This document shows positions 4,381 through 6,341 of a DNA stretch of 34,500 bases, in pieces. Under the pieces are notes generated by a model. It saw only the letters and a list, made by a program, of their open reading frames with translations. It searched no databases and was not told where the DNA came from. The stretch is from contig JADGCQ010000034.1 of NCBI GenBank assembly GCA_015228925.1, positions 1 through 34,500 on the forward strand, in the 5' to 3' direction. The number at the start of each line of letters is the position of its first letter. Position 1 is the first letter of the stretch. The translations under genes and the position numbers were made by a program. This DNA is from Magnetococcales bacterium. GTDB lineage: Bacteria > Pseudomonadota > Magnetococcia > Magnetococcales > UBA8363.

Positions 4381-5625
4381 GTGGATATTAACTTTTTGGA
4401 TATTTTTCAAGGCATCAGTACGCTGGTGTCTTCGTTTCAGACGCAACCGAGTATTGCGTTTGCGAGGCTTTTTTTGATTGGTCTTGCATTTGTTCTGATC
4501 TACCTTGGCCACAAGGGTATTCTGGAGCCGTTGCTGATGATTCCCATGGGGATGGGGATGGCGGCGGTTAATGCGGGCATTATGTTTGTCCCGCCGTCGA
4601 TGAATTTGCCGGAGCAGGGCGATAAGGGTACTTTGTTTCTCAACCCCTTGATTTCGGAGGGGGAGAAGTTAACCAATATCTTGCAGATTGACTTTCTCCA
4701 GCCGATCTACATCTTCACCTTTTCCAACGGTTTGATCGCTTGTCTGGTTCTCATGGGGATTGGTTCGCTTTTGGACGTGGGCTATATCATGGCACGTCCT
4801 TTCCAGAGTATGTTCCTGGCTGTGTGTGCCGAGTTGGGGACCGTTGTTGTCTACCCGCTTGGTATTGCCCTCGGACTCGGTGAGGGTGCGGCTGCGGCGA
4901 CATCCACCATCGGTGGTGCGGATGGTCCCATGATTCTTTTCGCATCGCTCATGATGGCTCCCGAAATTTTTGTTCCGATCACCATTGTTGCTTACCTCTA
5001 CCTTGGGCTGACTTATGGTGGTTATCCCTACCTGATCAAGTTTTTAATCCCTGAGAAGATACGCGGGCTTCCGATGCCCATCGAAAAGGGATCGCGCATC
5101 ACTCCCGATCAGAAAATGATCTTTGCCGTGATAACCTGTACGTTGCTGTGTTTGTTGTTTCCTGTGGCGGCACCGCTGTTTCTCTCGCTCTTCTTGGGGG
5201 TTATGGTGCGCGAGGCAGGCTTGAAGGATTTTCATAGCCTGTTTTCCAACCAGATACTTTACGGTGCCACGTTTTTCCTTGGGCTGCTTCTCGGTGTTCT
5301 TTGTGAGGCGTCTACGATTATGAACCCTGTTGTTTTCAAGCTGTTAGCTCTTGGTATTACCGCACTAACCATCTCTGCAATAGGTGGTATCATCGGTGGC
5401 TATATCCTTTACTACCAGTCTGGTAAAGTGTTCAATCCGGTGATTGGTATTGCTGCTGTCAGTTGTGTTCCGACCTGTGCCAAGGTGGCTCAGAAGAGTG
5501 CCTCAAAGGCGAATCCAGAATGTATCATTCTTCCACAGGCTATGGGAGCTAATGTCAGTGGTGTGATCACTTCTGCTATTTTGGCCTCTATCTTGGTCGC
5601 GCTGGTTGGCCCGTTCAAAGGATGA
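4381..5625 (+). CDS. mmdB: methylmalonyl-CoA decarboxylase beta subunit, Na+ pump
   Basis: This integral membrane subunit decarboxylates carboxybiotin and couples this to Na+ export. The 414-residue protein is almost wholly hydrophobic. It carries the family motif GGADGP (about 178-183), whose Asp181 corresponds to the Na+/proton-binding Asp of OadB-type subunits, and an N-terminal helix ending in the family-like LEPLLMIPMGMG. The start is a GTG at 4381 with a strong GGAGGAG (4367-4373) seven bases upstream; an in-frame ATG at 4330 lacks such a site. The preceding 295-base gap is T/G-rich and holds two small hairpins (4094-4109 and 4135-4156) but no convincing gene. They could adjust expression between mmdC and mmdB. 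A terminator follows. Confidence 0.92.
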   Translation: MDINFLDIFQGISTLVSSFQTQPSIAFARLFLIGLAFVLIYLGHKGILEPLLMIPMGMGMAAVNAGIMFVPPSMNLPEQGDKGTLFLNPLISEGEKLTNILQIDFLQPIYIFTFSNGLIACLVLMGIGSLLDVGYIMARPFQSMFLAVCAELGTVVVYPLGIALGLGEGAAAATSTIGGADGPMILFASLMMAPEIFVPITIVAYLYLGLTYGGYPYLIKFLIPEKIRGLPMPIEKGSRITPDQKMIFAVITCTLLCLLFPVAAPLFLSLFLGVMVREAGLKDFHSLFSNQILYGATFFLGLLLGVLCEASTIMNPVVFKLLALGITALTISAIGGIIGGYILYYQSGKVFNPVIGIAAVSCVPTCAKVAQKSASKANPECIILPQAMGANVSGVITSAILASILVALVGPFKG

Positions 5626-5666
5626 CGATGTTTTAAGTTTGTGCTGGTGGATAAGATTTGGACGTG

Positions 5667-5694
5667 AAAAAAGGCCGCGAAAGCGGTCTTTTTT
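5667..5694 (+). terminator. Rho-independent terminator of the mmd operon
   Basis: An AAGGCCGC stem, GAAA tetraloop and GCGGTCTT arm (one G-T pair) is followed by a run of T. It lies 41 bases after the mmdB stop. The A-run before the stem makes it potentially bidirectional. Confidence 0.9.
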
Positions 5695-5735
5695 CATTGG
5701 TGATTGCGTTTCAAGGTTAAAAACGATTAGAAAGT

Positions 5736-5776
5736 AAAGAAGGGGTCTGGGGAATTCTTTCCCCAGGTTTTGACTT
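5736..5776 (+). repeat. diverged copy (D) of the intergenic hairpin repeat
   Basis: AAAGAAGGGGTCTGGGG, a short AT-containing loop, then CCCCAGG and TTTTGACTT matches the plan and many bases of the 51-base repeat, with a shorter stem and changed loop (AATTCTTT). It lies between the mmd terminator and the predicted small RNA. Confidence 0.7.
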
Positions 5777-5848
5777 GAGACAAGAACATATGCCCCGTTT
5801 TTGACGAAGGGCCAATCGGGATCGCAGCAGCGGGCAGGGGAGAGGAAT

Positions 5849-5898
5849 AAAAAAGCCAGGGGTCGGTAGAGGGGGGGAGAGGGGAACCGACCCCTGGC
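5849..5898 (-). terminator. terminator of the candidate small RNA
   Basis: Perfect 13-bp inverted repeat (5855-5867 with 5886-5898), 18-base pyrimidine-rich loop on the minus strand, then TTTTTT (complement of 5849-5854). There is no T-run on the other side, so the polarity is minus. Confidence 0.8.
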
Positions 5899-6060
5899 CA
5901 TAGGTGTGTAAAACACAACCTATGTCAAACAGCTCATAAAGAGCCGAACCAGGGACAGATGAAGGGGGGTACGCCTGTCCCTGGTGAGGCAGCGGGATTG
6001 TGTCCCACTACCTTTCTTTCAAAAACCGGAATTCACGCGACCGGTTCTAAAGCCGTTGTC
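5849..6060 (-). ncRNA. candidate small RNA with C-rich hairpin loops
   Basis: Read on the minus strand, this stretch is a chain of stem-loops. The first is a 5-bp ACCGG/CCGGT hairpin (6025-6045). The second is a short GGGA/TCCC hairpin (5994-6006). The third is a perfect 11-bp stem (5948-5958 with 5975-5985) with a 16-base loop containing six consecutive C. The fourth is a 7-bp hairpin (5899-5905 with 5918-5924). The last is a perfect 13-bp stem (5855-5867 with 5886-5898) with a loop holding runs of four and seven C, followed directly by six T. That last element is a textbook Rho-independent terminator in this direction only. No open frame with a ribosome binding site explains the region. The 5' end is uncertain; the AT-rich stretch 6060-6240 would hold the promoter. 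C-rich loops are known to pair with Shine-Dalgarno-like targets in several sRNA families. Confidence 0.65.
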
Positions 6061-6341
6061 TTACATATATCAAGAACCGGGCCATATTTAAATATCGTTA
6101 TAAAACAATATATTATTTAATAGAGTCGTTTTCCTTATCGAGAGCATGGTAATTATTTTTACAGTTGGTTACTGATCAAGAGGGATGGTACGGCTTGTTT
6201 ATTGTTATCAAATGTTTGAAATGAAACAATAATAAAAAAAAGTGGAAAATTTTTTTCCATCAAAGGTCATCTGTGCAAAATTCGACACCCCTGAAGGGGG
6301 AGCGTGAGACCGTGGTATGGTGATGGTGCATGGGTGTGGTG

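Follow-up and report, generated by a model that had tools for sequence, protein, structure and literature searches.

A conserved small RNA with C-run hairpin loops in Magnetococcales, apparently switched on by its own two-component system

The CsrB/RsmZ sponges are chains of hairpins that expose one repeated loop motif, the number of which varies between relatives, and CsrB titrates CsrA, just as CrcZ titrates Hfq/Crc. Within Pseudomonadota, C-rich loops are found in the alphaproteobacterial CcsR/cuckoo RNAs, the CCUCCUCCC sRNAs. In B11/6C RNA, the C-loop of the terminator pairs with guanine tracts beside ribosome-binding sites, which leads to repression (PMC12395582). In the CbrA-CbrB-CrcZ system of Pseudomonadaceae, a kinase gene and a sigma-54 response regulator gene are followed by a separate RNA unit with a sigma-54 promoter, and further RNA copies lie elsewhere in the genome (PMC8871633). 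Full-text search, outside the subscription literature, for small-RNA work naming Magnetococcus returned only a BarA-UvrY target study. Here we describe what appears to be a new regulatory RNA circuit of Magnetococcales, in which an RNA with C-run loops is switched on by its own sensor-regulator pair.

The window, which is the whole stretch of 34,500 nucleotides that was analysed, carries the RNA gene on its minus strand, with the following parts and evidence.

5849..6058, minus strand: small RNA of about 210 nt (fold z = -8, conserved in 6 of 7 congeners, covariation)
6022..6048, minus strand: hairpin 0, the variable 5' hairpin (fold; sequence unconserved within the genus)
5987..6013, minus strand: hairpin 1, 11-bp stem AGGUAGUGGGA, loop CACAA without a C-run (four pairs changed on both sides)
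5948..5985, minus strand: hairpin 2, loop CGUACCCCCCUUCA with six C on a 12-bp stem (the loop does not vary across 7 genomes; in three pairs both sides have changed)
5931..5945, minus strand: hairpin 3, short and weakly conserved (fold and pair count)
5899..5924, minus strand: hairpin 4, CAUAGGUUGUG...CACACCUAUG (fold and pair count; nearly invariant)
5855..5898, minus strand: hairpin 5, the terminator, perfect 13-bp stem, loop UCCCCUCUCCCCCCCUCU with CCCC and CCCCCCC
5849..5854, minus strand: terminator T-run of six T (sequence)

The minimum free energy of the RNA region (minus strand, 6060-5849) was -99.4 kcal/mol, whereas shuffled sequences averaged -63.5 (sd 4.5); this gives a z of -7.99, and none of 200 shuffles was as low. 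A preliminary description of this DNA had noted a chain of about five hairpins; the chain holds, but the fold gives six. Sequence and fold bear out its perfect 13-bp terminator followed by six T, and also its loops with six and seven C on the two stems that are longest, at 12 and 13 bp, but the C6 stem is not the 11-bp stem it had reported, which belongs to the preceding hairpin without a C-run. C6+ loops on hairpins of at least 10 bp occur just 11 times in 516 kb of the window genus (both strands), and six of the 11 come from this RNA, as its two C-run hairpins in each of three genomes, so the C-run plan exceeds chance. A plus-strand reading with GGA loops of the CsrA type was rejected, since the promoter and the T-run are both on the minus strand. 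Two minus-strand ORFs overlapping the RNA (5503-5916 and 5727-5918) were judged spurious because both run through the terminator. Another terminator-like hairpin (AAAAAAGACCGC...GCGGCCTTTTTT) lies at 5664-5697 on the minus strand and separates the RNA from the convergent oadB gene.

In a similarity search of the genus, the RNA locus turned up in six of seven congeners, and the seventh genome is just 74% complete; the relatives are Magnetococcales MAGs. The 3' 140 nt of the RNA are nearly invariant in the genus, including the whole loop CGUACCCCCCUUCA and the loop flanks beyond the C-run, and the 5' hairpin varies. The C6 and C7 loops, whose conservation the preliminary description had proposed to look for together with homologues and compensatory changes, are kept in 7 genomes. 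A pair count over the alignment showed that 95.2% of cells pair and that 10 pairs are changed on both sides, though this covariation is modest as it rests on seven related rows; when the stem partners were slid as a control, pairing dropped to 34-48%. The stem of hairpin 5 is paired in 100% of cells across the 7 genomes, with three compensated pairs, and its substitutions (G-C to A-U, U-A to C-G) leave the C-run unchanged. When unit hairpins were compared between two genera, 6 of 11 pairs proved to be compensated (25 cells), and the slid controls were far lower. The window locus is almost certainly a genuine conserved RNA gene.

Rfam gave no match in the window at gathering score. Relaxing the threshold to E <= 10 gave 12 matches, none of them credible and 6C not among them, and the best hit of the CcsR/ar type was only ar7, which scored 13.6 bits (E = 3.7) where the gathering score is 60. 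The 6C and CcsR covariance models suggested earlier as a check therefore both failed to match, and by model the RNA belongs to no Rfam family, neither 6C nor CcsR. The earlier suggestion of a 6C-like plan in a Gram-negative host, either by convergence or as a new family, agrees with a conserved RNA gene without an Rfam match.

Relatives were found with R1, a covariance model of the C-run hairpin. In a second genus (g7, family f7) it detected C-run arrays in 9 of the 11 genomes, each with two to six C-loop hairpins and spanning up to about 800 nt, and further members came from regulator neighbourhoods and weak hits in families f9 (G032, G028, G015) and f13 (G019). Across relatives the number of C-run hairpins per array is 1 to 6, with recurrent short spacer hairpins, e.g., GGUCACAAGUUUCUUGCGACC, between them. 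The stems of f9 and f13 are mostly unrelated in sequence (e.g., CCAGAGGCUUAGCGG), and the loops are still C-runs, e.g., UCCCCCCCCC; between families, then, stems are replaced completely and C-run loops are retained. Because the C-run loop survives this wholesale stem replacement, the C-run is probably the working part of the RNA. In 361 other Pseudomonadota, no C-run RNA matched at E <= 1e-3 under strict filters. Weak R1 hits in other families (L094, L095, L097-L101) were discarded as apparent coding sequence. In family f10, a TGGCACAATTGTTGAT promoter-like site and a hairpin with a CCCCC loop were seen about 280 nt past a homologous regulator (L149, G016 C294), which is a possible further member. 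Second, detached C-run loci were observed in f13 (L119, G019 C30) and f9 (L120, G015 C84; L121, G032 C102), and those of f9 adjoin grpE-dnaK.

The stems resemble dispersed CCAGGGG/CCCCTGG repeats, which are common in some of these genomes, and the hairpins might be taken for a DNA-level repeat (REP-like or palindromic) without RNA function. We regard this as very improbable, because there are one or two C-run loci per genome, with their strand constant relative to a conserved promoter, and because they have a terminator, compensatory changes, and loops that are retained as the stems change. A search with the bare stem/C-run pattern was swamped by dispersed repeats. G037 and G013 had more than 130 matches each to this pattern, and the matches listed for G037 were a dispersed G/C-rich palindromic repeat of the GGGGTCCAGGGGCAAAGCCCCTGG type, whose stem is like the CCAGGGG stems of the RNA.

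Upstream of the RNA, a candidate promoter and activator-type sites were located as follows.

6069..6084, minus strand: sigma-54-like promoter TGGCCCGGTTCTTGAT (GG 6083-6082, GA 6071-6070, spacing N10)
6271..6282, minus strand: upstream activator-type site AATTTTGCACAG with a TTTTNCAC half-site (kept throughout the genus except in one of 7 genomes)
6243..6259, minus strand: second, palindromic site TGGAAAAAAATTTTCCA (TTTTCCAC/GTGGAAAA sites recur upstream of relatives)
6146..6165, minus strand: possible and degenerate third site ACTGTAAAAATAATTACCAT (weaker evidence; the stretch in congener G002 is CTGGAAAAAAATTTTCCAG)

Transcription is predicted to start near 6058. The GG-N10-G spacing is present in all 21 aligned loci of four families, and between regulator and array the promoter has the form TTGG(C/T)(A/G)CG-N4-YTGATATATA. 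At -12 the loci read GA, or in one family GG or GT, where the canonical dinucleotide is GC, which means that the last base of GG-N10-GC is A, G or T, and the sigma-54 -12 element of Magnetococcales may have moved from GC to GA. Each window-genus genome has about 4-13 copies of TGGCAC-N5-TTGAT and fewer, 2-6, of the canonical TGGCAC-N5-TTGCW, a comparison in which coding-sequence bias is possible. Upstream of the aligned loci there are 32 sites of the TTTTNCAC type, where shuffles lead one to expect 2.0. The main one in the window genus lies at -193 to -197 from the promoter in 6 of 7 loci, with additional sites at -175, -165, -80 or -68 in some members, and the loci of g7, f9 and f13 have one at -81 to -86; in G032 this site is inverted, as GTGGAAAA, and lies at -95. 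A housekeeping sigma factor could instead transcribe the RNA from an extended -10, which TGATATATA resembles, and the -12 dinucleotide differs from the canonical GC; the two-component link described below would then be mere neighbourhood. This is improbable, since GG-N10-G is kept in all loci, even those without TATATA (f13 and one f9 locus), there is no -35, the sites keep a fixed distance near -84, and the detached copies (window genus, G019 C30) retain both promoter and sites.

In g7 the array lies downstream of genes for a histidine kinase with PAS/GAF sensors and for a response regulator that combines receiver, sigma-54 activation and Fis-type HTH domains; this holds in 8 of 8 members whose contig holds both, while in G035 the array and the kinase-regulator pair are on separate contigs. 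The closest homologues of the g7 regulator in f9 and f13 also directly precede the array. The RNA of the window genus stands apart from the regulator operon. A tree of 47 regulators placed the window-genus orthologues inside the array-linked clade (99/97), beside f9 (99/99), with one orthologue per genome; none was recovered from G004 (78% complete). The regulators of this clade, those of the window genus among them, have GNK(S/T)(L/V)AA in the HTH, and most paralogues have NQGIAA. The copy of the window genome is intact (G000 contig 9, 8189-9601) and adjoins a kinase-like ORF. The two-component system very probably controls the RNA. Since the orthologue falls in the array-linked clade with the same HTH and has an intact copy, control in trans is the best reading for the window genus. 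Regulators of the HK-NtrC type are expanded in the order, with up to 11 closely related ones per genome at E <= 1e-90. The preliminary description mentioned neither the promoter and its upstream sites, nor the linked two-component system, nor the long multi-hairpin relatives.

We propose the following mechanism. The histidine kinase and its NtrC-type response regulator would sense a signal, and the phosphorylated regulator would bind the TTTTNCAC sites upstream and activate the sigma-54 promoter. The product would be an RNA with one to six C-run-loop hairpins that ends in the terminator, and the C-runs, as its active parts, would pair with G-tracts near the ribosome-binding sites of several mRNAs and repress them. 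In the window genus the RNA gene would have been separated from the regulator operon and yet have stayed under the regulator's control. We consider this whole circuit, from sigma-54 two-component system through C-run RNA to mRNA pairing, the best explanation and slightly favoured overall, with the element as the gene of a small RNA that acts in trans and belongs to a new, previously uncatalogued Magnetococcales family. The pairing step, to which we give an even chance, has its precedent in B11/6C.

The G-rich ribosome-binding-site regulon guessed at earlier did not hold up in target searches. Gene-level checks found no peak of G6+ runs at Shine-Dalgarno distance. Among 5-mers Shine-Dalgarno-like ones dominate, and GGGGG was counted 9 times in the window genus, where 3.5 were expected, and 2 times in g7, where 4 were expected. 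GGGGGG-N4-9-ATG outnumbered its reversed control throughout the Magnetococcales, whether or not a genome carries the RNA, and as this excess is independent of the RNA and lacks the Shine-Dalgarno-distance peak, the idea of a broad poly-G regulon was given up. Hits to the exact complement of the invariant loop 1 stayed at chance level, with no orthologous target common to the genus; the closest congener pair share a few such sites, as expected of near-identical genomes. The RNA may still have a few specific mRNA targets.

The main rival to mRNA pairing is that the sigma-54-controlled RNA acts as a sponge, titrating a C-rich single-strand binder such as Rho, a cold-shock protein or PNPase, because the kinase-regulator-RNA layout, with one loop repeated in varying number, resembles CbrAB-CrcZ. 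The near-identical C-loops that vary from 1 to 6 in copy while stems get replaced would suit such a role, and so would the mRNA target searches without a signal. To our knowledge, no bacterial protein is titrated by C-run hairpin loops, and the invariant loop flanks of the window genus fit pairing as well as protein binding. The operon layout is that of CbrAB-CrcZ (PMC8871633), but known C-loop sRNAs act by base pairing (B11: PMC12395582), and we hold the sponge to be doubtful. That the RNA is a decoy for a protein that binds poly(C), for instance Rho, and so a sponge of an undescribed kind, is more unlikely still; if it were true, the sensed signal would globally alter termination or mRNA handling.

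The magnetotactic lineage thereby gains a regulatory RNA that is specific to the order and probably has a sensor-regulator pair of its own, an independent convergence on the CbrAB-CrcZ layout. The fast replacement of stems with strict retention of loops is a natural experiment that singles out the C-run as the functional part, and the RNA offers a direct test of what C-run loops bind outside Actinobacteria.

Compared with the known systems, the RNA shares with the actinobacterial 6C RNA and its mycobacterial form B11 a pair of hairpins whose loops each hold six or more C, the last hairpin being the terminator. However, its host belongs to a different phylum, and unlike 6C/B11 it has long relatives with up to six C-hairpins and a link to a sigma-54 two-component system. 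The loops of CcsR/cuckoo are CCUCCUCCC, whereas those of the Magnetococcales RNA are long C-runs in another context, and CsrB/RsmZ differ in their GGA loop motif and in their regulator. In CbrAB-CrcZ, the RNA lies directly downstream of the kinase and regulator, likewise in g7, f9 and f13, but not in the window genus, where it is detached; CrcZ/CrcX/CrcY are multi-copy, and so are the C-run loci in f13 and f9. But CrcZ repeats A-rich Hfq/Crc sites where this RNA repeats a C-run in hairpin loops, and the CbrA kinase has an SLC5 transporter domain where the array-linked kinase has PAS/GAF sensors, and the two RNAs are not homologous. By anatomy, the RNA is akin to 6C in its loops and to CrcZ in its control, and to neither by homology.
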